Below, piece after piece: positions 3,146 to 39,943 of a DNA stretch of 43,064 bases. The position numbers and the translations under genes were made by a program. This DNA comes from a virus. Below the pieces are notes generated by a model. It was not told the DNA's origin. It saw nothing but the letters and a program-made list of their open reading frames with translations, and did no database searches. Numbering within the stretch: position 1 is the first letter of the stretch; each line of letters starts with the position of its first letter. The DNA lies in the IMG/VR virus record IMGVR_UViG_3300005577_000053, positions 1 through 43,064 of that record; one strand, 5' to 3'.

Positions 3146-3376
3146 TCAAGTATTAATAAGGACATGTGCCCATGTGCCATCTTTCAATGTGCCTGATGCC
3201 ATAGAGAGTTCCCAGCCCAGGCGTTTCATCAGAGTTTGAGCAGCATACCTATGATTTGCCTCACCATTAAGGTGATGGTCCCATTCAACAAAAATGGTCC
3301 TGGCTTCACAAGAAGCCTTGATTCGGCTGGGTTTGGTATTTGTTGGGCCAATATACTTGGTGCGGATGGCTTGCAT
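3146..3376 (-). CDS. paralogue B of a small phage protein family, 76 aa
   Basis: Two near-adjacent ATGs exist (3382 and 3376); AAAGGAG is seven bases from the second, giving MQAIRTKYIGPTNTKPSRIK. The protein is paralogous to 2588-2836. The GPTNTKPSRIKA core, an EWDHHLNGEANHRYAA block and a GTWAHV end are typical of a phage family that I recognise by pattern but cannot name or assign function to. Its ribosome binding site overlaps the stop of the lipoprotein gene. Confidence 0.8.
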   Translation of the reverse strand: MQAIRTKYIGPTNTKPSRIKASCEARTIFVEWDHHLNGEANHRYAAQTLMKRLGWELSMASGTLKDGTWAHVLINT

Positions 3377-3378
3377 AT

Positions 3379-3744
3379 TCATTCTCCTTTGCAAACAAAG
3401 TTGGGGACATAGAGGGCTGTTGCCCTCCCTGCAGGGGCTACAGCACGCCAGGGCACAGGTCCATGGAAGCGCTGGGACACCTGGACAACAACAGCGTTAG
3501 CCCCCATGTATCTAGCTGCCTTCTTCAGGGCCTCCAGGGCCTCGTCAGTGCTGCCGTAGGTGCGCTTGGTGACAGAGACATAGCCCAGGGTTTTAGCGCC
3601 TTCTGGAGCCTGTTCAACAACACAGACAGCACCAATGTAGCCTGTTGCTGGGGCCACCTGTGTGGCCTTTGTGCTCATTACGTCACGGCCGGGGCCTGTG
3701 GCGCAGCCTGCAAGCAGCAGGGAGAGAAACAGGGCTGTTTTCAT
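3379..3744 (-). CDS. predicted lipoprotein, 121 aa
   Basis: ATG at 3744 has AGGAG six bases upstream. MKTALFLSLLLAGCATG is a short signal peptide with lipobox LLAGC (Cys at residue 14), so the mature protein should be lipid-anchored. The body contains an alternating beta/alpha pattern (YIGAVCVVEQAPEGAK, DEALEALKKAARYMGANAVVV) resembling small outer-membrane lipoproteins of the YbjQ-like/unknown-function type. A leftward early lipoprotein could act in superinfection exclusion; that is inference from position only. Confidence 0.75.
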   Translation of the reverse strand: MKTALFLSLLLAGCATGPGRDVMSTKATQVAPATGYIGAVCVVEQAPEGAKTLGYVSVTKRTYGSTDEALEALKKAARYMGANAVVVQVSQRFHGPVPWRAVAPAGRATALYVPNFVCKGE

Positions 3745-3752
3745 GGATGCTC

Positions 3753-3941
3753 CTAGCATTCGTTATCAATGATGCGGACTTCCGTATTGCGGCGGTCCTG
3801 AAAAAACCTAGCTTGATTAAAGCTAGATTCTAAATCATCTGAGGCAAAAACCGTATACCAATTATATGAATGTGTCTTTTCCTGCACCTCATACCTGTAG
3901 TTGTATAAACCTTCTGCCTTGCTACGTGGAGTGATGTCCAT
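3753..3941 (-). CDS. hypothetical protein, 62 aa
   Basis: ATG at 3941 has AAGGGAG eight bases upstream, which overrides an upstream TTG. Sequence MDITPRSKAEGLYNYRYEVQEK ... ends RRNTEVRIIDNEC. It is soluble and aromatic-rich, with a predicted beta-rich N-terminal half. No family recognised. It is the second gene after the leftward promoter. Confidence 0.7.
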   Translation of the reverse strand: MDITPRSKAEGLYNYRYEVQEKTHSYNWYTVFASDDLESSFNQARFFQDRRNTEVRIIDNEC

Positions 3942-3955
3942 TCTGTGTTCTCCCT

Positions 3956-4051
3956 TCAAGTGGAACTTCCGGTTGCCTTGGCGATGGCGGCCCCACCGAT
4001 GATCGCCACGGGGATAAGAGCGGCAATAAGAATTTGGGTTTGGTAGGACAT
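3956..4051 (-). CDS. first gene of leftward operon: 31-aa membrane peptide
   Basis: ATG at 4051, with GGAAG about six bases upstream, encodes MSYQTQILIAALIPVAIIGG and ends AKATGSST. One hydrophobic helix (ILIAALIPVAIIGGAAIA) occupies most of it. The predicted start of the transcript from the 4082-4110 promoter is about 25 bases upstream, so this would be the promoter-proximal gene. Its stop lies within the ribosome binding site region of the 62-aa gene. Function unknown. Confidence 0.65.
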   Translation of the reverse strand: MSYQTQILIAALIPVAIIGGAAIAKATGSST

Positions 4052-4081
4052 GCTAGCTTCCAGTGGGTTGCTGTTGCCTCT

Positions 4082-4110
4082 ATTGTCTCCTTGTTTAGGA
4101 AGAGAGTCAA
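4082..4110 (-). promoter_or_regulatory. leftward sigma70-type promoter
   Basis: On the minus strand: -35 TTGACT (4110-4105), 17-bp spacer, -10 GACAAT (4087-4082). The -35 is preceded by AAAGTGC, matching the AAnGCTTGA-like context of the other three promoters. It is about 25 bases from the first leftward gene and probably drives the whole left arm. Confidence 0.75.
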
Positions 4111-4209
4111 GCACTTTCTTCAAGTGTTACACATTGCCTTTTGTGTGCTCAAGACATGGACTAAAGGGACAACATAACAGCCCTACTGAGAACATGGCTA
4201 ATGTGGGGA

Positions 4210-4238
4210 ATGTTAATGAAATGTTAAGGAGATGTTAA
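4210..4238. repeat. three direct ATGTTAA repeats, 11-bp spacing
   Basis: ATGTTAA occurs at 4210-4216, 4221-4227 and 4232-4238, exactly one helical turn apart, so bound proteins would lie on one DNA face. It could be an operator for the leftward promoter about 100 bp away or an iteron array. Confidence 0.6.
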
Positions 4239-4321
4239 TAAATACCATCCAAACCCCCATTTTCATGCCTTTTAGTTCTATTAAACATGCCTTTCTATGA
4301 CCTTCCTGACCGCCTAGGAGC

Positions 4322-4370
4322 GATTTAAATTGAGGGGCTAGGGGGTAGGCTAGGGTGGGGTGATTTAAAT
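4322..4370 (+). other. G-quadruplex motif flanked by GATTTAAAT repeats
   Basis: G-tracts GGGG (4334-4337), GGGGG (4341-4345), GGG (4353-4355) and GGGG (4357-4360) with loops of 3, 7 and 1 nt satisfy the standard quadruplex pattern. The motif is bracketed by identical GATTTAAAT copies at 4322-4330 and 4362-4370, exactly 40 bp apart. Confidence 0.6.
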
Positions 4371-4828
4371 GCCTCAAAACGTGCCCCCTGTTGGTGCACT
4401 TGTGTTGTTTATGTGCTATCAGTGTGACTGGCTGTAACCGTACATGCGACAACGGATGTTATGTAAACAGACAGAGCATGCAGTCGAATGCATGTGTGGA
4501 CCTGTCGTTTTGGGTGTGATAGGCTGGAAGGTTGTCCCTCGGGAGAGGGGGTGGGGGAAAACTTGGCTGCGTGGGGAAAGGTGTAACCCACCTTGCTATG
4601 CTGCTTATATTTTTTAGAAACAGACACGTCTGCCTTTTGGTGAATGGAAAACAGGCTGTGGAATGGGATGAAGCTACCCAGACACCTCTTTGGTGTTTTG
4701 AGAGCTTCTAGACATTTGTAGCAACCCAGCAAACAGTATTGATGTGCGGGTGGAACTCTCCAACTTCCACTGCACTAACGTTCCGTGGAGGACAGTGATG
4801 TTTATTTCATCTGTAAGTACGTCAAAGC

Positions 4829-4857
4829 TTGAATTACGCTGAAATCTGTGCTACCCT
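4829..4857 (+). promoter_or_regulatory. weak rightward promoter candidate
   Basis: -35 TTGAAT (4829-4834), 17-bp spacer, -10 TACCCT (4852-4857, three of six matches). The 12-mer TCAAAGCTTGAA over the -35 (4822-4833) is repeated exactly at the strong promoter 5194-5205, which is the main reason to call it. Confidence 0.45.
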
Positions 4858-4859
4858 AA

Positions 4860-5017
4860 TACATTAAACATTCTGTTTAATACAGTAATTATATAATTAC
4901 ATTATATAATTAATACATTACTATATATATAATTATATATATAACAACTATAAATATATATATAATATAAATATAACAATATATTATATAAATATAAAAG
5001 AATAATAAAAAGAAAGA
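4860..5017. other. extreme AT-rich tract
   Basis: Roughly 160 bp of almost pure A and T, dominated by TATATA and AATATA runs. It would melt easily and is the best candidate DNA-unwinding element in the window. No start codon with a ribosome binding site is present. Confidence 0.7.
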
Positions 5018-5019
5018 AA

Positions 5020-5147
5020 TACATTAACACTACGTATTAATGTAAAGAAAGAAAAAGAAGAAGTCTACGACTTCCATACGCTGTAGAACAAACGTTCTCC
5101 GCTTGGTGCTACGAACGTACACACAACACGCTGTCACCAAGACAGCG
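5020..5147. repeat. cluster of four short hairpins and heptamer repeats
   Basis: Perfect inverted repeats: TACATTAA/TTAATGTA (5020-5027/5037-5044), GAAGTC/GACTTC (5060-5065/5069-5074), AGAAC/GTTCT (5085-5089/5094-5098) and CGCTGTC/GACAGCG (5129-5135/5141-5147). The heptamer ACGCTGT occurs at 5078, 5128, 5251 and 5341. The segment lies between the two rightward promoters. Confidence 0.6.
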
Positions 5148-5200
5148 GCAGAGCGTCGGCTACCTGAAGCAGCCTCCTTAATGTAGTTTTACATCAAAGC

Positions 5201-5229
5201 TTGAAATAGAGATAAAAATATGATATAAT
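5201..5229 (+). promoter_or_regulatory. strong rightward sigma70-type promoter
   Basis: -35 TTGAAA (5201-5206), 17-bp spacer, perfect -10 TATAAT (5224-5229), AT-rich upstream sequence, predicted start near 5236. It is the obvious driver of the virion operon beginning with the terminase small subunit. Confidence 0.85.
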
Positions 5230-5251
5230 AGATGTATAGAATGAATTAATA

Positions 5252-5313
5252 CGCTGTTCGCTTTGTTGCTCACAGCGAATAAAAACAACAAACGTCGGGC
5301 CCTTTAGGGGCCC
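5252..5313 (+). promoter_or_regulatory. two hairpins in the leader of the virion operon
   Basis: The leader after the 5201-5229 promoter can form CGCTGT/ACAGCG (5252-5257/5272-5277) and a GC-only stem GGGCCC/GGGCCC (5297-5302/5308-5313, loop TTTAG). The second is not followed by a T run in the rightward direction, so it is more likely an RNA-processing or translation-control element than a terminator. Confidence 0.5.
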
Positions 5314-5350
5314 TCCTTATGTGGAAAACAACAAGGAACTACGCTGTAAA

Positions 5351-5971
5351 ATGACAAGCATGCTCACTGACTCGGCCAACAAACGGGCCGCTGCCGAGAA
5401 GGCAGAAGAACTCAAGCAGCTGCGCCAAAAACGTCTGGCGCTGGTTGCCAAGCGCAATCACCGCTCGGACGAAGTGAAGATTGAAACGATTAAAACCTAC
5501 CTCGCCCTTGGCGGGAATTTAACCCTCACATCTGCCTCGACGGGCATTGCCTACACGACGTTGAAGGTGTGGAAGGCCAGTGCCTGGTGGAACACGGTGA
5601 TTACCGAGCTTCGAAAAGAAGAGAAACTCCTTCTCTCGACAAACACCAAGAAACTGATGAAAGTGGCTATGGAGGCTTTGGCGGATAGGGTGGAGAATGG
5701 CAACCACATATATGACCAGAAAAAGGGTAAGCTTATTCGCAAACCCTTGGAAGCGAAAGACCTCCATAAAATCTCTGTGGATTTAATCGACAGGGCACAG
5801 GTATTGGATAAGGCCACAGAAGAAACTGTGAATATCCAGAATGACGAAGACAAGCTTAGTAAACTCGCTGAACGATTTGCAGCCCTTGCATTAAAAGCTG
5901 CCGAGAGACAAGCAAATATTAATACAGGTGAAGTTGTAGATATTCAATCTAAGGAAATTACAGAGGAATGA
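5351..5971 (+). CDS. terS: terminase small subunit
   Basis: Protein of about 206 aa that directly precedes and overlaps (ATGA) the large terminase gene. Residues about 45-85 read as a helix-turn-helix: SDEVKIETIKTYLALGG, then TSASTGIAYTTLKVW, as in small terminase DNA-recognition domains; the remainder is helical and acidic at the C-terminus. It should bind packaging sites and hand DNA to TerL. Start choice is uncertain: GTG at 5321 extends it by ten residues but lacks a ribosome binding site, while ATG at 5351 has AAGGAA about 13 bases upstream and overlaps the stop of an 11-codon leader ORF starting at 5319. Confidence 0.8.
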   Translation: MTSMLTDSANKRAAAEKAEELKQLRQKRLALVAKRNHRSDEVKIETIKTYLALGGNLTLTSASTGIAYTTLKVWKASAWWNTVITELRKEEKLLLSTNTKKLMKVAMEALADRVENGNHIYDQKKGKLIRKPLEAKDLHKISVDLIDRAQVLDKATEETVNIQNDEDKLSKLAERFAALALKAAERQANINTGEVVDIQSKEITEE

Positions 5972-7485
5972 AACTAACAGCAGCCGTAGTCAGAGGGTTT
6001 GTTGGCTCCGTACTGGCTTCTGGCTTTGACGGTGCTGTCGAATCTCCTGATTTCCATGATGAGTGCTGGGAGCTTTGCACCAGCCCAAATAAGTTTGTTG
6101 CGATAGCCGCTCCACGTGGCCATGCCAAATCCTCCGGCATTACTCTCGGATATGGTTTAGCAACGCTCTTATTCAAAGAGCGTAAATTTATGCTGCTGGT
6201 CTCAGATACTGAGTCACAAGCAGCATTATTCCTTGGTAACTTCAAACAACAATTACAAGACAATCAAGAACTAATTGATTTGTTTGACTTGCAAAGAGAT
6301 GAAAAAGGTAAAACTAAGTTCATCAAGGAAACTGAAACAGATATTATTGTTGAGTTTAAAGACGGGGAGAAGTTTCGGATAATTGCTAAGGGTGCCGAAC
6401 AAAAGCTTCGTGGATTGCTGTGGGACGGCTCCCGCCCTGACATCATTCTCTGTGACGATTTCGAGAATGACGAACTTGTGATGAACAAGGAACGCAGGGA
6501 GAAGATGCGGAGGTGGTTTACAGCCGCTCTGTTGCCCTGTAGAGCCGACAAAGGCGTTGTCCGCATAGTGGGTACCATCCTACACATGGACAGCCTTCTA
6601 GAGCGGCTAATGCCCAAGCAGATGTCAGGTGCAACAAAGCACACCGACCTCAAGACTTGGAGCAGCAAGCCAGTTGGGATGTGGAAGAGCGTTAAATACC
6701 GCGCACATAATAATGACTTCACTCAGCTATTATGGCCACAGAAAAAGAAAGCTCAGGATTTCATTGATATTAGAAATGATTATCTGGAGCAAGGGCTCTC
6801 AGATATTTATTCTCAAGAATATTTAAACCATCCAATTGACGAAACTACTTCTTATTTCAAGCGTGGTGATTTTATTGCCATGTCTCAAGAAGACAAGAAG
6901 ATGAAATACAACTACTTTGTCACCGCCGACTTGGCGATTTCTGAAAAGGAAAAAGCTGACTTTTCTGTATTCATTGTGGCTGGTATCGATGAGAATAGAA
7001 TGATACATGTCAAGCATGTTATTCGTGACCGTTTGGACGGCAGAGAAATTGTTGATCAGCTCATTGCTCTCCAGCGCCAATACAATCCTATGGCTGTCGG
7101 TATTGAGGACATGCAAGTGTCTAAGTCTATTGGGCCTTTCTTGAATGAAGAGATGCTAAAGACTCAGCAATTTATCAACTTAATTCCTTTGAAGCATGGA
7201 GGCAAGGACAAGTTAAGTCGTGCCAGGTCCATCCAGGCTCGTATGAGAGCTAGGGGCGTTAAGTTTGATAAAGAGGGAGATTGGTATGCTTCCTTTGAAG
7301 AGGAATGTATTCGCTTCCCAAGGGACAGGCATGATGACCAAGTGGATGCCTTTGCTTATTTAGGCCTAATGCTCGATTCGTTAATCGAAGCCCCTACCCA
7401 ACAAGAAATGGACGAAGATGAACGAGATGAACAATTACAGCGAGCCAACTTCGGACATGGACGATCCCGAATCACCGGCTATTGA
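5968..7485 (+). CDS. terL: terminase large subunit (packaging ATPase/nuclease)
   Basis: 505 aa. Walker A-like APRGHAKSS at about residues 48-56 and Walker B PDIILCDDFEND at about 157-168 make up the N-terminal ATPase. The C-terminal RNase H-like nuclease shows VTADLAISEKEKADFS (first Asp), GIEDMQVSKS and RDRHDDQVDAFAYLGL (final Asp residues). Packages DNA into the prohead through the portal. The start codon overlaps the terS stop as ATGA, indicating coupling. The 3' end overlaps the portal frame by 68 bp. Confidence 0.95.
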   Translation: MKLTAAVVRGFVGSVLASGFDGAVESPDFHDECWELCTSPNKFVAIAAPRGHAKSSGITLGYGLATLLFKERKFMLLVSDTESQAALFLGNFKQQLQDNQELIDLFDLQRDEKGKTKFIKETETDIIVEFKDGEKFRIIAKGAEQKLRGLLWDGSRPDIILCDDFENDELVMNKERREKMRRWFTAALLPCRADKGVVRIVGTILHMDSLLERLMPKQMSGATKHTDLKTWSSKPVGMWKSVKYRAHNNDFTQLLWPQKKKAQDFIDIRNDYLEQGLSDIYSQEYLNHPIDETTSYFKRGDFIAMSQEDKKMKYNYFVTADLAISEKEKADFSVFIVAGIDENRMIHVKHVIRDRLDGREIVDQLIALQRQYNPMAVGIEDMQVSKSIGPFLNEEMLKTQQFINLIPLKHGGKDKLSRARSIQARMRARGVKFDKEGDWYASFEEECIRFPRDRHDDQVDAFAYLGLMLDSLIEAPTQQEMDEDERDEQLQRANFGHGRSRITGY

Positions 7486-29593: not shown

Positions 29594-31291
29594 TTATTGG
29601 CAGGCTATGCAGTCTTCTCCTTTACTAGCACGGACATTTGATTTTGAATAGATGTAATAAAGTCCTCGGATGCTCTCATCCAAGAACGCTTGTTTGTGAA
29701 TTGCACTAATCTCACTCTCCTCTGCTTCACTGCTGAAGAACAGATTCAGGCTTTGCCATTGGTCAATATACCTAGCTCTGCTCGATGCGTGCCTAAGCAC
29801 GTGGCGTTGATCTAGTTCAAACGCTGTCTTGAACACCTGCTTCTCATGAGCATCCAGCCATTCAACATGCTGGACAGAGCCCTGATGATCAACCAAGTCG
29901 CTAATGGTCTTCTTGCTGTAAACACCTCGCTCTTTCATAATGGGAAGAAGCACGCTGTTCACTCTCTCAATTTCACCAGCAGCGCTGCTCTGTGTGTAGG
30001 TCATCCCTGGGTCGGGGTTAATCCCCTCAGATACACCACCCATAATGAGCGCTGTACTCTTTGTCGGAGCAATGGCAATTAGATGGGTGTTTCGTCTTTC
30101 GACGGGCGCTCCCTGACACCACTCCGGTACTCCATAATTTCTTCCGAGGAGGCGGCTAGCCTCGTTAGCTCTTGTGGAAATGTCTGCAAAGATAGATTGG
30201 TTAAGGTAACCGGCTTCAAGGGACTCGAACGGGATTCTTCGCTGTTGTAGGAGGGTGTGAAACCCGCATACGCCGAGTCCAAGGGCACGCCCCTTCTCCG
30301 TAGCTCTGACAGCGTTTTCCAAGCCAGGAATTGAACTTCCTCTTGTGATAAACTCTTGAGCGACACAGTCAAGGAAATGAACTGAGTCTCCAACTGCATT
30401 TGTGTTCTTCCACTCATCGTATTTAGCCAGGTTGAGGGACGACAACACACATGTGAATGTATGCTCTTCGTCAGAGAATAGATTGATTTCGTTGCATAGG
30501 TTGCTAGCCAGCACGTTGAGCCCGTTCTGAACATACTCAGGAGGGCGGGCGCGACGCACCTTGTCCTTGAAGAAGAAGTAACCCCGACCGGTGAGCATCT
30601 TCACCTTGAGCATACGTTGATACTTGGCTAATGCTTCTGTCTTACCCGTTTGAAGGTCAACAATGAACTGGTCATTGATAATCCAGCCAATGTTTAAATC
30701 ATCTGGATGGTTTTCTAGATAGGTAATGACTTCCCAAAAATCAGAATGTTCCACAGGCAGGTAGGCAGCCCATGCACCCCTGCGAGTGCTGCCTTGACTG
30801 ACATCTTGGGAGTCGGTAACAAAGCCTCTAATAACTGGCAACGTGCCAGAAGCCACACCCCCAGCGCTAATGGCACTGCCACGAGGACGAATATCCCCAA
30901 GATAACCAGAAGTACCAAAGCCATGCTTCGTGAGAAGAGCTGTTTCACGACGAGACGAATAAAAGCCATCAATTGAATCCTTAATATAGCCGCCGGAGCA
31001 GCTTACAGGGAGGCCCCTGGATGTTCCCATGTTTGCGAGAATGGGTGTGCTACAGCTAAGAAAGCCGTTCCAGATAAGATCGAAGAACTTTCTGGAATAT
31101 TCATCTGGGCTGTAAGTATGTCTTGCCGCTGTTGCAGCAATACGCTCAACCTGCTCTCTAAAATCTTTAGCGTCATATAGGTACTTGCTATTGAAGAGTT
31201 GCAGTCCGCCAGTTGACATCCACTGTGGGAGGCGGCCAGTTGCTTGAAGGTGCTTTCGCTCATCGCTTAATTCTCTGTAAAGGTTAGTCAT
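29594..31291 (-). CDS. nrdA: ribonucleotide reductase class I, large subunit
   Basis: 565 aa, without the N-terminal ATP cone of the 760-aa E. coli protein. Key residues visible: Cys in VSCSGGYIKDS (substrate-reducing), the Asn-x-Cys-x-Glu active site in SNLCNEINLF, second redox Cys in FTCVLSSLNLA, APTKSTALIMGGVSEGINP, the Tyr pair in GLYYIYSKSN, and a C-terminal ECIACQ-like CIACQ for thioredoxin/glutaredoxin contact. Makes deoxyribonucleotides for phage DNA synthesis together with nrdB. Loss of the ATP cone should remove dATP inhibition. Last gene of the leftward operon. An HNH gene overlaps its 5' end by 8 bp. Confidence 0.95.
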   Translation of the reverse strand: MTNLYRELSDERKHLQATGRLPQWMSTGGLQLFNSKYLYDAKDFREQVERIAATAARHTYSPDEYSRKFFDLIWNGFLSCSTPILANMGTSRGLPVSCSGGYIKDSIDGFYSSRRETALLTKHGFGTSGYLGDIRPRGSAISAGGVASGTLPVIRGFVTDSQDVSQGSTRRGAWAAYLPVEHSDFWEVITYLENHPDDLNIGWIINDQFIVDLQTGKTEALAKYQRMLKVKMLTGRGYFFFKDKVRRARPPEYVQNGLNVLASNLCNEINLFSDEEHTFTCVLSSLNLAKYDEWKNTNAVGDSVHFLDCVAQEFITRGSSIPGLENAVRATEKGRALGLGVCGFHTLLQQRRIPFESLEAGYLNQSIFADISTRANEASRLLGRNYGVPEWCQGAPVERRNTHLIAIAPTKSTALIMGGVSEGINPDPGMTYTQSSAAGEIERVNSVLLPIMKERGVYSKKTISDLVDHQGSVQHVEWLDAHEKQVFKTAFELDQRHVLRHASSRARYIDQWQSLNLFFSSEAEESEISAIHKQAFLDESIRGLYYIYSKSNVRASKGEDCIACQ

Positions 31292-31754
31292 TGGTGGAAA
31301 TAATCCAGTTCGCGAATTTTAGTAATTCCTCTCTACTTGCGTTGCTTTTCATAACGTTGGCTTTCTTGCTAATGACTTGCACATTTCCTTTTACATACCC
31401 CAAGGAAGAATCAATTCTGTCTAGGGAGGGTGAGTTGTCTTGAGCTTTTCTTGTATTTATTTGCAATGCCATTCCCAAAACAGGGCAATACTGAGGGACT
31501 TCTATGTCATCGAGTGTAATGTCTAACGACATCCTCTTTAAAGCAGCCCTAGCCTGTGCTGCCTCAAGCAGGCGTTTTCTAACATCGGACCTGCTCTTAA
31601 TCTTTCTTTCCTTAAAGGCCAGTGGGTTTTCTTTATATCTTTCCGCTGCTCTTTCTGAGCAGCAAGCTTTACACCATGAATGACGACCTTTGTAGGAATA
31701 ATAGAAGTCCATTTGTGACTTCTCTTGATTACACTTAACACAGGGGTTTACCAT
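31284..31754 (-). CDS. HNH homing endonuclease between nrdA and nrdB
   Basis: 156 aa. N-terminal CxxC zinc modules (CVKCNQEKSQMDFYYSYKGR, WCKACCSERAAERYKENP), a basic linker, and a C-terminal HNH-type core: QYCPVLGMALQINTRKA, SPSLDRIDSSLGYVKGNVQV, SKKANVMKSNAS. This layout is known for phage free-standing homing endonucleases that recognise and cut near their own insertion site. It overlaps nrdB (7 bp) and nrdA (8 bp), so it has inserted between them without a spacer and keeps translation coupled. Confidence 0.9.
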   Translation of the reverse strand: MVNPCVKCNQEKSQMDFYYSYKGRHSWCKACCSERAAERYKENPLAFKERKIKSRSDVRKRLLEAAQARAALKRMSLDITLDDIEVPQYCPVLGMALQINTRKAQDNSPSLDRIDSSLGYVKGNVQVISKKANVMKSNASREELLKFANWIISTND

Positions 31755-32710
31755 ACAAACTCAGTCTCGGACCAGTTGCGGCTGTATTCGTTACCAACTG
31801 CACTAAAAAAATCATTGTAGGTATAATTGTTAATGCCATTGTAAAACCACAAAGCGATTGGATTATAGGGAACCTTCCATTCGCTATGGAGGCCCATATT
31901 GCCTAGGCAGATGTTAATACGGCTCTTGACAAACTCTTCTAGTTGGTGGGCCGTGATACCTTTAATTGGACCCTTCTCAAATATCTTAGCGATAATTGCT
32001 TCTTCATGCTTCAGAAGCTGTTCCGCTATTCCACGAATTACTTGGTGGTCTAGCTTGGCTCCAGATTCTTTAAAGAGCCAGGCTCCTGCTTCGCTATGAA
32101 GGTTCTCATCTCTAACGGAGAAGTTGATGCCTCTAACAATGTTTGTAAGCTTGTTCTTCCCTTGAGACTGGAAATGCTTAAGGAAAGCGAAAGAGCTGTA
32201 GAGCACAGCGCCTTCAAGCATGGAGAACATTGGAAGGAAATACTCAGTGTCTTCATATTGCTTAATAAAGTCCATTCGCTGCTTTAAGACTGGATCGTCT
32301 ACATAGCTGCTGTAAAACTCGTCTGTGCTTAAACCAAGAGACTGATTAATTTTGTCATAGAACGGTTGATGAACAGCAAGCTCAAACATACCGAAAGTAG
32401 AAGCCATTCGTTGAATTTCTGGCCGTGGAAAAGCATCCATAATCCTGCCAGTCCAATAGTCACGCCCAGCAAACAGTTCGTATAGACTAAATAACTTAAG
32501 AACCGTAAGAACGCCATGCTTCTCAGCTTCTGTGAGATTTGTGAGAATGTCATGTACATCTTTCTCCACTCGAATTTCGTCTGGCAGCCAGAACACTGAC
32601 AGCTGCTTCTTGGTGAACTCATCCGCTTGCGGAAAGCGGACAACGAACGACTCGCTAGGGTCTGTTATTTTATTTGGCAAGTAAATAGAGTCCAATGTTA
32701 GAGAACGCAT
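31748..32710 (-). CDS. nrdB: ribonucleotide reductase class I, small subunit
   Basis: 320 aa from ATG at 32710 (MRSLTLDSIYLPNKITDP); an upstream TTG at 32725 is less likely. Diiron/tyrosyl features: FELAVHQPFYDKI (Glu, His and the radical Tyr four residues after His), SMLEGAVLYSSFAF (Glu) and SVRDENLHSEAGAWLF (ExxH). The first Glu-His pair is spaced ExxxH, not ExxH as in E. coli. C-terminus TEFVW provides the NrdA-docking tail. The 5' end overlaps a 47-aa membrane protein gene by 41 bp in another frame. Confidence 0.95.
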   Translation of the reverse strand: MRSLTLDSIYLPNKITDPSESFVVRFPQADEFTKKQLSVFWLPDEIRVEKDVHDILTNLTEAEKHGVLTVLKLFSLYELFAGRDYWTGRIMDAFPRPEIQRMASTFGMFELAVHQPFYDKINQSLGLSTDEFYSSYVDDPVLKQRMDFIKQYEDTEYFLPMFSMLEGAVLYSSFAFLKHFQSQGKNKLTNIVRGINFSVRDENLHSEAGAWLFKESGAKLDHQVIRGIAEQLLKHEEAIIAKIFEKGPIKGITAHQLEEFVKSRINICLGNMGLHSEWKVPYNPIALWFYNGINNYTYNDFFSAVGNEYSRNWSETEFVW

Positions 32711-32813
32711 AGCCGCTGTAGACAATGGTCATATTGCCGTTGCCCTTCATATATTGCTCCACAGCAACTCCCATGTAAACAAGCCCCACTAGGGCAATAA
32801 GCCAACTACTCAT
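32670..32813 (-). CDS. small membrane protein, 47 aa
   Basis: ATG at 32813 overlaps the previous stop (ATGA) and has GAGGAAGAAG upstream. MSSWLIALVGLVYMGVAVEQ gives one hydrophobic helix, then YMKGNGNMTIVYSGYAFSNI and a second helix GLYLLAK. It fits the many tiny membrane proteins of this phage. It runs 41 bp into nrdB in another frame, so nrdB translation is probably coupled to it. Confidence 0.65.
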   Translation of the reverse strand: MSSWLIALVGLVYMGVAVEQYMKGNGNMTIVYSGYAFSNIGLYLLAK

Positions 32814-37621: not shown

Positions 37622-37789
37622 TTAGCTCTCCTCATCGCCATTACGATACTCTGAGCAGGCTTCGTCGTACCCATCCCAGTTATCCACTCCATGACTCTTT
37701 AGGCATTCCAAGAACCATTGATCGTCACAAAGCTTTTGATATTCTTTGATTTGAATTGTTATGTACCCATCTGGGTCGTGTTCAAGCAT
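37622..37789 (-). CDS. small hypothetical protein, 55 aa
   Basis: ATG at 37789 with AAGGAG seven bases upstream, overlapping the polymerase stop by 8 bp. MLEHDPDGYITIQIKEYQKL, then CDDQWFLECLKSHGVDNWDG. The pattern DPDGYI..K-EY-.L..D-.FL.CL...GVDNW.GY is recognised from small phage proteins of unknown function. Confidence 0.75.
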   Translation of the reverse strand: MLEHDPDGYITIQIKEYQKLCDDQWFLECLKSHGVDNWDGYDEACSEYRNGDEES

Positions 37790-38502
37790 AAGCAATCTCC
37801 TTCATATTTGCTTGATTCATTCCTGCCTTCACTTCCCCTTCGAGGGGTACAACCCAAGCATATCCAAATAGCTTTTGTATGTTCGCTCGTAAGTCTTGGA
37901 ACACCTCATAGAAAGTGTTAGCAGCAAGGTGTACATGTGACCTAGGACAATCAACAGTAATCGAGTCATGTACCGTTTGAATGAACTTGATGTCGTCATA
38001 TTTCTTAAGCCTGTTGAATGCAGAGATACGAGCAATCATCATAACGTCTGCCCCTGTGCCCTGAACCGGGAAATTCGTGAGAGTGGTCCATGGGCAAAAC
38101 AGCTCCCCCCTCTTGTCAATGTTGGGTACTTTCCAAAAGCGTCCCAGTGGGCCAATAATTGGTTCATTTGCCATTACCTTCTGTGCCCATCTGTTGTGGC
38201 ATTCATTAATGCCTTTGTATTTGGCAAAGAACTTCTCGTTCACCCCGTCCCAGTATTTACTATCGCTGCTAACATGCATGAAAGCAGGGTCGTTAGCAAA
38301 ACTCCACCCAGACCCGCGGAAAATGGTCCTGAAGAGATATATCTTGCTAATTAGTCGGGAGGGGAGGTTAAAAGCCTCTCTGTTAAGCTCATGGGTGTCA
38401 TGTCCATCAATCACCTCTTGAATACCAACAGGGTCTCTGCTCAGCTCTAGAATGGTCCTCCATTCGGGTCTAAAGCTGCTTAGCGTCCACGGACACAAGC
38501 AT
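37782..38502 (-). CDS. polA: family-A DNA polymerase, C-terminal piece, with frame disruption in motif A
   Basis: The palm/fingers half. AAGGAGG lies nine bases before ATG at 38502, which reads MLVSVDAKQL then TAG (38472-38470). The rest is in another frame from 38465 down: EWRTILELSRDPVGIQEVID. Motif A should read VSVDAKQL-EWR; dropping seven bases (TAGACCC, 38472-38466) restores it with the catalytic Asp and the Glu/Arg at standard spacing. Other motifs are intact: O-helix PSRLISKIYLFRTIF (Arg, Lys, Phe) and motif C FIQTVHDSITVD. The uninterrupted frame is open from 38498 (TTG). Sequence error, +1 frameshifting at CTT TAG, or recent inactivation remain possible. Confidence 0.8.
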
Positions 38503-38503
38503 G

Positions 38504-38563
38504 CTAGATACCCTCCTTGAAGGCACTACTGAGCACTTCTTCATAATTCAAGATAACTAGCAT
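38504..38563 (-). CDS. possible 19-aa ORF in the polymerase insertion
   Basis: ATG at 38563 overlaps the previous stop (TAATG) and encodes MLVILNYEEVLSSAFKEGI, ending in TAG just before the polymerase piece. Too short to judge; it may serve only to couple translation. Confidence 0.3.
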   Translation of the reverse strand: MLVILNYEEVLSSAFKEGI

Positions 38564-38796
38564 TACTTACGAAGCAGCACTGGCTTGCTGCTCTCCTTAA
38601 TTAAAAGCTTCACCAACTCATCACACTCTTTTGGATGATGCTGCAACAGGTCACTCACCAATAGCTCTGGCTGTCTCTTAAACAAGTCAATGAACGAGAA
38701 CAGGGTGTGATACCAATTGCCTTCTGCGTAAATACCTTCTCCATATTCTTTGTCTTCGTCGTTGAAAGGCAAGGAGTCATAGAATTTAGCTGTCAT
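38563..38796 (-). CDS. hypothetical protein inside the split polymerase locus, 77 aa
   Basis: ATG at 38796 lies inside the last codons of the upstream polymerase piece. MTAKFYDSLPFNDEDKEYGE, then GNWYHTLFSFIDLFKRQPEL and a charged helix ending SSKPVLLRK. No endonuclease motif and no family recognised. With the following 19-aa ORF it forms the roughly 280-bp segment separating the two polymerase pieces. Confidence 0.65.
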   Translation of the reverse strand: MTAKFYDSLPFNDEDKEYGEGIYAEGNWYHTLFSFIDLFKRQPELLVSDLLQHHPKECDELVKLLIKESSKPVLLRK

Positions 38797-39943
38797 ATTG
38801 GCTTTCAAAAATCTCTAGGATTTCTCCACTCATGTTCTGTCCATTTGGTTTGCTGCTAGACAGCCTCCCGGTCCGTGCGTTACATTGATTGTATGTCGGA
38901 TGTAGCATTCCTTCAGGCCATGCATATTCTCTGTTAAGTTTGTTGAGTCCTTCGTAATAGGTGCCCCTCACTTTCTCAAGTTTAGCAAGCTCAAGTAATA
39001 GAGTTACAAAACCTTTTGCTCTAGCAGTGCCTTTAAGCTTTTTAAGCGTCCCCTCATCTGTGGCGTAAGTTCCGGGTTTCTTAAGTTCACTTCTAGGTAA
39101 TGGAGCAAGAAGTGTTGGGAGGAGGTGTTCCTTAATTCCAACACGAAAGCGAGGTTGTCCGAGCTTGGCCCCTGTTTTATAAAATCCAATAATTTCGCGC
39201 ACTTCTTCAACAATGGTACCGCCGTACAGGAAAGCACTAAGCTGATCACCAGAGTTGAAGTTGATACGGATATCAGGGTAAACGCTAGAAAGCTGTCCAT
39301 TAATTTCCTCAATGCGAGCACCAATCTCAGCGCTCTTTTCTTCACATCGCTTGCTGTTGTATTTCAGACCATTCCATTCCATTTCCAACAGCACCAACAG
39401 GTCTTGGCATTGGAGCTTGAATAGCTTGAATAGCTCTGGCTGCTGCCTGAATGCCTCCAGCTGCTTCAAATAGCACTGGTAGGTACCTAGGCAGTCATAC
39501 TCCCCATATTCACATAGGATTTCCCACGGCACCTGATCGGTGTCTATATTTTTATTCCAGTACTGCTCCTTGACCACATCTAGCTTCTGCTCAAAGCCGT
39601 AGAACTCCAGCACTTCGTTGAGGCTGGGGAATGCAGCTGTTTGTCCAGACAGCAGGAAGTGAGCTAGCTGCACGTCCCAAATCTTCTTGCCCTCAAAGTT
39701 GAAGCCTGTTCGTCGCAGCCAAGCAAGGTCAAACTTGAAGTTGAGTCCAATGAGCACTGACGCATAGTCGATGTGAATTTGCACATCCCTGTCGTCTGGC
39801 TTATGGGAAGTTGAATAGCCATTGCTGTGGTGGCAGTGAATTGACACCAGCTTGCCTTTTGTGCTATAGGGGCTCGCTAGGGGGAACTTCAGAGTCTCCA
39901 CATCCACCACCAGGGGGTTCTCCGTATACAAATCTCTTGTCAT
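38786..39943 (-). CDS. polA: family-A DNA polymerase, N-terminal piece with 3'-5' exonuclease
   Basis: 385 aa. DnaQ-like exonuclease: LVVDVETLKFP (D-x-E), LIGLNFKFDLAWL (Nx3D) and CEYGEYDCLGTYQCY (Yx3D). Then the thumb/fingers start and motif TGRLSSSKPNGQNMSGEILE. It ends FESQYDS and TAA at the point where motif A should follow. With the piece at 37782-38502 it makes a complete family-A polymerase as two polypeptides. Start ATG at 39943 is inside the 64-aa gene. Confidence 0.9.
   Translation of the reverse strand: MTRDLYTENPLVVDVETLKFPLASPYSTKGKLVSIHCHHSNGYSTSHKPDDRDVQIHIDYASVLIGLNFKFDLAWLRRTGFNFEGKKIWDVQLAHFLLSGQTAAFPSLNEVLEFYGFEQKLDVVKEQYWNKNIDTDQVPWEILCEYGEYDCLGTYQCYLKQLEAFRQQPELFKLFKLQCQDLLVLLEMEWNGLKYNSKRCEEKSAEIGARIEEINGQLSSVYPDIRINFNSGDQLSAFLYGGTIVEEVREIIGFYKTGAKLGQPRFRVGIKEHLLPTLLAPLPRSELKKPGTYATDEGTLKKLKGTARAKGFVTLLLELAKLEKVRGTYYEGLNKLNREYAWPEGMLHPTYNQCNARTGRLSSSKPNGQNMSGEILEIFESQYDS

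Follow-up and report, generated by a model that had tools for sequence, protein, structure and literature searches.

In the virus genome analysed here, the family-A DNA polymerase is encoded by two genes, polN and polC, and the code for catalytic motif A near the start of the second gene is broken by a 7-nt insert that carries an in-frame UAG and shifts the frame. The reading that we consider probable combines an ancestral polN/polC fission with the remnant of an HNH homing cassette, the motif-A insert of which would block cleavage and would be skipped by ribosomes. A broader proposition, which we favour with less assurance, is that recurrent mobile homing cassettes install bypass elements of 1-10 nt, natural stop-hops included, in the motif-A codons of a phage replicative polymerase, each accompanied by a newly evolved Shine-Dalgarno sequence and hairpin.

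The split polymerase locus in the window

The window, that is, the whole stretch of DNA that was analysed, is an IMG/VR virus record of 43,064 bases, with the polymerase locus on the minus strand. It is best read as a Zobellviridae-like phage with a two-gene family-A DNA polymerase in the order polN, small ORF, polC, laid out as follows.

38786..39943 (-): polN, 385 aa; 3'-5' exonuclease plus thumb/early palm half; C-terminal end FESQYDS
38563..38808 (-): ORF of 81 aa, 77 aa counted from ATG, between the polymerase halves
38504..38563 (-): 19-aa ORF MLVILNYEEVLSSAFKEGI; polC start relic joined to what may be the C-terminal remainder of an HNH protein
38552..38563 (-): relic of the original polC start, ATGCTAGTTATC; overlaps the stop of the 81-aa ORF
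38511..38518 (-): strong Shine-Dalgarno sequence AAGGAGGG, serving the replacement polC start
38473..38502 (-): polC codons 1-10, MLVSVDAKQL; ATG at 38502; includes the motif A aspartate; a hairpin is predicted upstream of the Leu codon
38466..38472 (-): motif-A insert TAGACCC, 7 nt; in-frame UAG, then +1 frame
37782..38465 (-): remainder of polC, EWRTIL...; open frame, conserved; motifs B and C, HDS

The original prediction that a family-A polymerase is split here just before motif A holds: PolN ends in FESQYDS ahead of motif A, PolC comes next, and the two halves match complementary parts of the Pfam DNA_pol_A profile (positions 48-132 and 169-378, respectively), with motifs A, B and C all present across them. 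PolC profiles align with Taq from residue 606 onward, just ahead of the motif A aspartate. The ORFs of 77 and 19 aa that had been noticed between the pieces were also found (38808-38563 and 38563-38504), and the larger one, in its 81-aa form, groups weakly with a family of small proteins, 'PolM' (five rounds of profile search, E 0.0016). DNA_pol_A matches nothing in the record apart from PolN and PolC, and the DNA_pol_B and DNA_pol3_alpha models match nowhere in it; an alternative polymerase is ruled out to the extent of searches with these three models.

The downstream piece had been predicted to begin with MLVSVDAKQL behind its own Shine-Dalgarno sequence, and it does so (ATG at 38502, Shine-Dalgarno at 38518-38511). 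However, it is not open: codon 10 is followed by an in-frame TAG, and the stop and frameshift that motif A contains do not figure in that description. The codons GAA TGG AGG (EWR...) follow in the +1 frame relative to MLVSVDAKQL, and this frame is open as far as 37782. Motif A is thus interrupted in the window, TAGACCC parting ...KQL from EWRTIL....

Fission of the polymerase across relatives

Related loci were collected by six scans of viral contigs with protein or profile queries and one scan of genome contigs, complemented by annotated phages and the window; individual loci of this set are labelled L001 etc. From the 375 loci gathered, we removed 182 duplicates (identical 251 nt), 13 loci lacking a PolC start, 5 whose contig does not reach motif A and 10 remote polymerases, which left 165 unique loci, the window included. 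L376-L380 and L012 (extras from a pattern scan and the window itself) were excluded as copies, and searching the DNA for a TAG-insert pattern turned up five contigs, every one already in the set.

PolN is present in 154 of the 165 loci and ends before polC in all 154; the remaining 11 have no polN on the available stretch, and none of the 165 has a polC open frame that also contains polN. The uninterrupted homologues whose search had been proposed are thus absent from the 154 relatives with both genes, and a continuous polymerase gene was found in the HMO-2011-type CRP-738. The two-gene arrangement also occurs in phages QDWS535, MEP401 and MEP402 and in two spring-water phages. The spacing of polN and polC varies between about 0 and 3.6 kb, with no fixed reading-frame relation; in L001 and L005, one gene directly adjoins the other. 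In L009, polN and polC are separated by about 3.6 kb (3351-6950) in which a C5 DNA methyltransferase gene lies, so the halves need not be neighbours.

At the gathering threshold, Rfam introns were found neither in the window nor in 17 loci, and a permissive scan of 38400-38900 gave just a chance-level match to a lncRNA. Because the genes of L001 and L005 abut, the gaps vary in size and frame, and Rfam detects no intron, splicing is disfavoured; and because relatives intact at motif A are split too, a homing element is not the cause of the fission. To judge from the gene layout, the fission is old, ancestral and family-wide, and not an intron. Of the predicted two-subunit polymerase, the two-gene organization therefore stands and the attribution to a homing element does not. 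The MEP401-type split has been published with splicing left open and introns suggested for MEP401 and MEP402, according to the parts of the article drawn on here (PMC10580990); our comparison answers the question left there, in that this split appears to be a two-gene fission with no intron.

A PolM-type small protein was matched in the polN-polC gap of 70 of the 154 loci with the PolN end present, a proportion on which a universal small middle protein between the halves is rejected. The family is of about 60 aa, with a C-terminal end often like PVAALLRK, and the members tested, the 81-aa ORF included, have no Pfam or PHROG match. It is possible that this protein is a third component of the split polymerase.

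A recurrent scar in the motif-A codons

An extra 1-10 nt lies exactly between DAxQ(L) and E/D-W in 26 of the 165 loci, hereafter scarred, as opposed to intact at motif A; the 25 besides the window come from IMG/VR, GenBank phages and one GenBank MAG. The inserts are of 1 nt (4 loci), 2 nt (6), 4 nt (2), 6 nt (8), 7 nt (2), 8 nt (2) and 10 nt (2), so that length modulo 3 is 0 in 8 loci, 1 in 10 and 2 in 8. The frame from the start codon stops at codon 10-12 in 23 of the 26, L014, L055 and L161 having no stop within two codons of the insert. An in-frame stop is present in each of the eight 6-nt inserts, and no sense in-frame insert occurs among the 26 scarred loci. The commonest insert, TAGCCC, is found as CTT[TAGCCC]GAR in L020, L045, L050, L273 and L305; the junction of the window is CTT[TAGACCC]GAA, and others read CTT[TAGCTT]GAA (L023), CTG[TAACTG]GAG (L187) and, with a single extra nucleotide, CTT[T]GAG (L027, L038) and CTT[T]GAC (L079). 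MEP401 and MEP402 are intact at motif A. The scar of L024 was found in contigs of 3 metagenomes and that of L055 in contigs of 2.

On the PolC tree the scars are dispersed, requiring 24 changes, of which at least 17 are forced by starred branches, and they cluster no more than shuffled labels do. They lie mostly at tree tips, some near-identical sisters are intact, and so is L281, the nearest relative of the window (76% identity). As read from this tree, the motif-A break arose many times in related viruses. The downstream PolC is intact and constrained, with dN/dS of 0.06-0.17 in unsaturated pairs of scarred PolC, the scars themselves being undated; L230 differs from L229 by 8 synonymous and 0 replacement changes. 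Further breaks are absent from scarred PolC, except for probable introns in L287, L302 and L305. A second, upstream motif A as a substitute was rejected, given that only relics were found.

The homing cassette and its probable remnant in the window

Among 159 loci compared, 10 of the 26 scarred ones and 0 of the 133 intact ones have an HNH ORF whose end lies 23-39 nt upstream of the E codon, a comparison biased by the HNH profiles having been built from this locus set, mostly from scarred loci. When any HNH is counted where the polN end is present, the frequencies are 10/24 and 4/124 (p 1.3e-6); a different HNH, about 300-560 nt off towards the polN end, occurs in four intact loci and in the scarred L049. 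Because the HNH profiles came from the same set, we also scanned, with PHROGs, 9 of the 36 ORFs of 85 aa or more in the gaps of intact loci and detected no nuclease. The abutting HNHs of L020, L055, L187, L223 and L273 match the phrog_3322 endonuclease, that of L014 matches phrog_374, and that of L167 matches Pfam HNH_3.

The structure of the cassette is apparent from two pairs of empty and occupied alleles, L229/L230 and L196/L187. L229 (empty) and L230 (occupied) have identical PolC from codon 11 on. L230 contains, in order, the original ATGTTACTACAAGCAGA, a promoter-like sequence, the HNH gene, a Shine-Dalgarno sequence, replacement codons and the insert; the replacement is a synonymously altered copy of polC codons 1-10, after which come TCTT and the original GAGTGG. 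The L196/L187 pair follows the same plan. Comparison of these alleles places the cassette of occupied relatives in about polC codons 6-10 and has it re-supply codons 1-10, its parts being the HNH gene, a strong Shine-Dalgarno sequence, the replacement codons and a closing insert of 1-10 nt before the original codon 11. Relics of the old polC start precede the HNH in L014, L020, L055, L187, L210, L223 and L230; in the same view, none was seen in L273 and L029, and L167 is cut by the contig end. The 'LEW' in the relics of L187 and L230 was rejected as polC code, as it lies in what is by eye a promoter-like TTGACT-N17-TATACT.

In the window, an HNH gene was not found at the polC site, in agreement with the earlier statement that the insert encodes no recognisable endonuclease. 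Right at the stop of the 81-aa ORF, ATGCTAGTTATC equals the first 12 nt of the intact polC of L003, and over 12,053 positions of that strand no other site matches any of 81 intact polC starts at 12/12. It opens the 19-aa ORF MLVILNYEEVLSSAFKEGI, after which come the Shine-Dalgarno sequence, the replacement start and the insert. The end of this ORF (KEGI, AAGGAGGGTAT) resembles the HNH end of L187; the resemblance is not significant alone (174/2000 shuffles), and an HNH remnant peptide was rejected on these grounds. Because the HNH gene is absent, leaving the polC-start relic and a doubtful HNH end only, the window is a cassette remnant at most. The suggestion that it holds a remnant of a homing element has thereby gained substance, occupied relatives having, at this very site, an HNH gene together with a replacement 5' end of polC, and the polC-start relic being preserved in the window: its interpretation as a homing cassette minus the endonuclease gene appears well supported.

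Translation signals beside the scar

Scarred loci differ from intact ones in several translation signals. GGAGG occurs within 25 nt upstream of the start in 22/26 scarred versus 7/139 intact loci (p 1.5e-17), and the mean folding z of the start region plus insert is -1.68 in the 26 scarred versus 0.08 in 138 intact loci (p 8e-10). A helix that pairs the spacer/AUG region with motif-A codons reaches a score of at least 14 in 20/26 scarred versus 3/139 intact loci; the window has a folding z of -1.8 and a helix score of 12.5, below this cut, and L187, L210 and L230 have no significant hairpin (z -0.8, 0.2 and 0.3). The Leu codon is CTT in 18/26 scarred versus 35/133 intact loci (p 5e-5). Across 17 phylogenetically independent pairs, the traits go with the scar at about 11:0 for the Shine-Dalgarno sequence, 13:0 for the hairpin and 9:0.2 for CTT. 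That these features were gained repeatedly next to a stop argues for selection on expression of the broken gene.

The hairpin registers differ among loci, so one homologous hairpin across all of them is rejected, and covariation was counted only on those 6 of the 26 scarred loci with a common register. In these six, 3 pairs changed on both sides, and the covariation score was reached by 1 of 500 shuffles. Putative take-off and landing codons match in L023 (CTT-TAG-CTT), L187 (CTG-TAA-CTG) and L210 and L230 (CTT-T-CTT); the TAGACCC of the window and the TAGCCC of five loci have no cognate landing codon (CUU to CCC).

Proposed mechanism and alternative explanations

Because the second gene is broken inside its active-site code, ribosomes probably must skip the insert, and we infer recoding across it. 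Under the proposed model, the motif-A insert would protect the polC site from the HNH endonuclease. Ribosomes would pause at the stop directly after the Leu take-off codon, aided by the upstream hairpin, which would re-form behind the ribosome and favour forward movement at the stop; a short bypass or frameshift would then take translation to codon 11, and motif A would be restored. Exact re-pairing would be possible in L023, L187, L210 and L230, and near-cognate landing, CUU to CCC, would be required in the window and the TAGCCC loci.

The most serious competitor, although we consider it doubtful, is ordinary recoding in place of bypass, that is, +1 frameshifting or stop readthrough with the extra motif-A residues tolerated. 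L027, L038 and L079 have CUU UGA, which we take to be a prfB-like +1 site, and a +1 shift at the CUU UAG of the window would yield KQL-RP-EWRT. However, the insert lengths span all three frame classes (8, 10, 8), so a single type of shift cannot serve all loci, and a single +1 frameshift was rejected as the common cause; and from the lack of any sense in-frame insert we argue that extra motif-A residues are not tolerated. It is less likely still that the scarred polC is dead, the insert being a lethal or near-lethal homing footprint in phages that are brief or complemented in co-infection. The position of the scars at tree tips, with 24 changes for 26 loci, and the near-identical intact sisters, including L229, the PolC protein of which is identical to that of L230, would fit such a fate. 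Yet the scarred PolC is otherwise unbroken, the probable introns of three loci apart, the inserts are non-random, with a stop at codon 10-12 in nearly all, and the strong Shine-Dalgarno sequence and the hairpin accompany the scar in independent pairs.

That the gap is a self-splicing intron or intein, with the polymerase restored at the RNA or protein level, we regard as very improbable: the annotation of the ICP2 polymerase joins segments across an inserted ORF, and introns have been suggested for MEP401 and MEP402 (PMC10580990, in the parts used here), but the abutting genes of L001 and L005 and the negative Rfam searches speak against it, PolC has its own start, and an insert of 1-10 nt is too short for either element. 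A sequencing or assembly error in the window seems equally remote; the window is a single metagenomic record, but the junction is likewise broken in 25 other loci from several sources, and identical scars (L024, L055) recur in contigs of different metagenomes.

Relation to known systems

The comparisons in this section draw on parts of the cited papers. The closest system in its working is T4 39-mobA-60, in which gene 60 has a 50-nt translational bypass (PMC3014915, PMC5009743). In both cases, an enzyme gene is in two pieces with an HNH endonuclease between them (here, in relatives), a short insert, presumably untranslated in the present case, lies near the start of the downstream piece, with a stop right after the take-off codon, and the insert has been proposed as protection from the nuclease. 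Unlike the 50 nt of gene 60, the inserts here are of 1-10 nt; they lie in a catalytic motif of a DNA polymerase, the cassette supplies a replacement 5' end, the arrangement recurs in many lineages, and the bypass is a prediction from sequence. The stem-loop at the take-off site of gene 60 may have a counterpart in the hairpin predicted for most scarred loci. Because take-off would be at codon 10, there would be no long nascent peptide, in contrast to gene 60.

The MEP401-type OM43 phages (PMC10580990) share the split and the small ORF between the pieces; introns were suspected there, and motif-A inserts or cassettes are not reported in the parts of the article compared. Aeromonas phage 25 gp43A/43B and the split NrdA of Aeh1 are likewise phage enzymes in two genes at homing-endonuclease sites, and their halves co-purify or are active (PMC2988022); by analogy, PolN and PolC presumably assemble into an enzyme. 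Gp43 differs in being a family-B polymerase, and the portion of that article drawn on mentions no bypass insert. In the ShiLan insertion (PMC11855218), an HNH is inserted in a phage methylase gene without an intron or intein, similar to our case; in that case the reading frame of the host gene runs on through the insert, whereas here the cassette replaces the 5' end of the gene.

In the portion of a 2016 review used here, stop-hops are reported only for synthetic constructs, and no natural in-frame stop-hop is known. The matched codons around the stop in L023 and L187 resemble those constructs, with the difference that here they are natural sequences tied to a mobile cassette and are candidates for such a function; the CUU UGA of L027, L038 and L079 resembles the prfB +1 frameshift. 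In the open-licence literature, mostly titles and beginnings of abstracts, we recognised no account of motif-A inserts or bypass in phage DNA polymerases. T4 gene 60 has been a near-solitary example of programmed bypass in bacterial systems; here, there are about two dozen short candidate cases at one essential codon, with at least 17 changes of state on the tree, and with the intact sisters as controls, which rules short bypass follows and whether it arose as protection from endonucleases can be tested directly.

Other interruptions and insertions

Elsewhere in polN and polC, we detected one small break, in the polN of L088 (profile position 346/349), and two interruption sites in 10 loci. 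The latter are in PolC, at profile position 56/57 (L064, L066, L282, L283) and near position 146 (L068, L075, L287, L293, L302, L305). The interruptions in L064, L066, L068 and L075 are of about 750-790 nt and contain HNH-like ORFs; presumably, the look of their ends is that of group I introns. At the gathering threshold, Rfam gave no intron in these four loci, L293 or L305. An additional HNH insertion site lies near TGRLSSSxPNLQN at the PolN end in L011 (ICP2), L041, L049, L057, L058 and L286; in ICP2, this insertion is annotated as a join around gp51.

The window itself has another endonuclease gene, matching phrog_3322 (31284-31754, minus strand), between the genes for the large (29594-31291) and small (31748-32725) subunits of ribonucleotide reductase and overlapping both. 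Its placement resembles the mobE site of T4-like phages.
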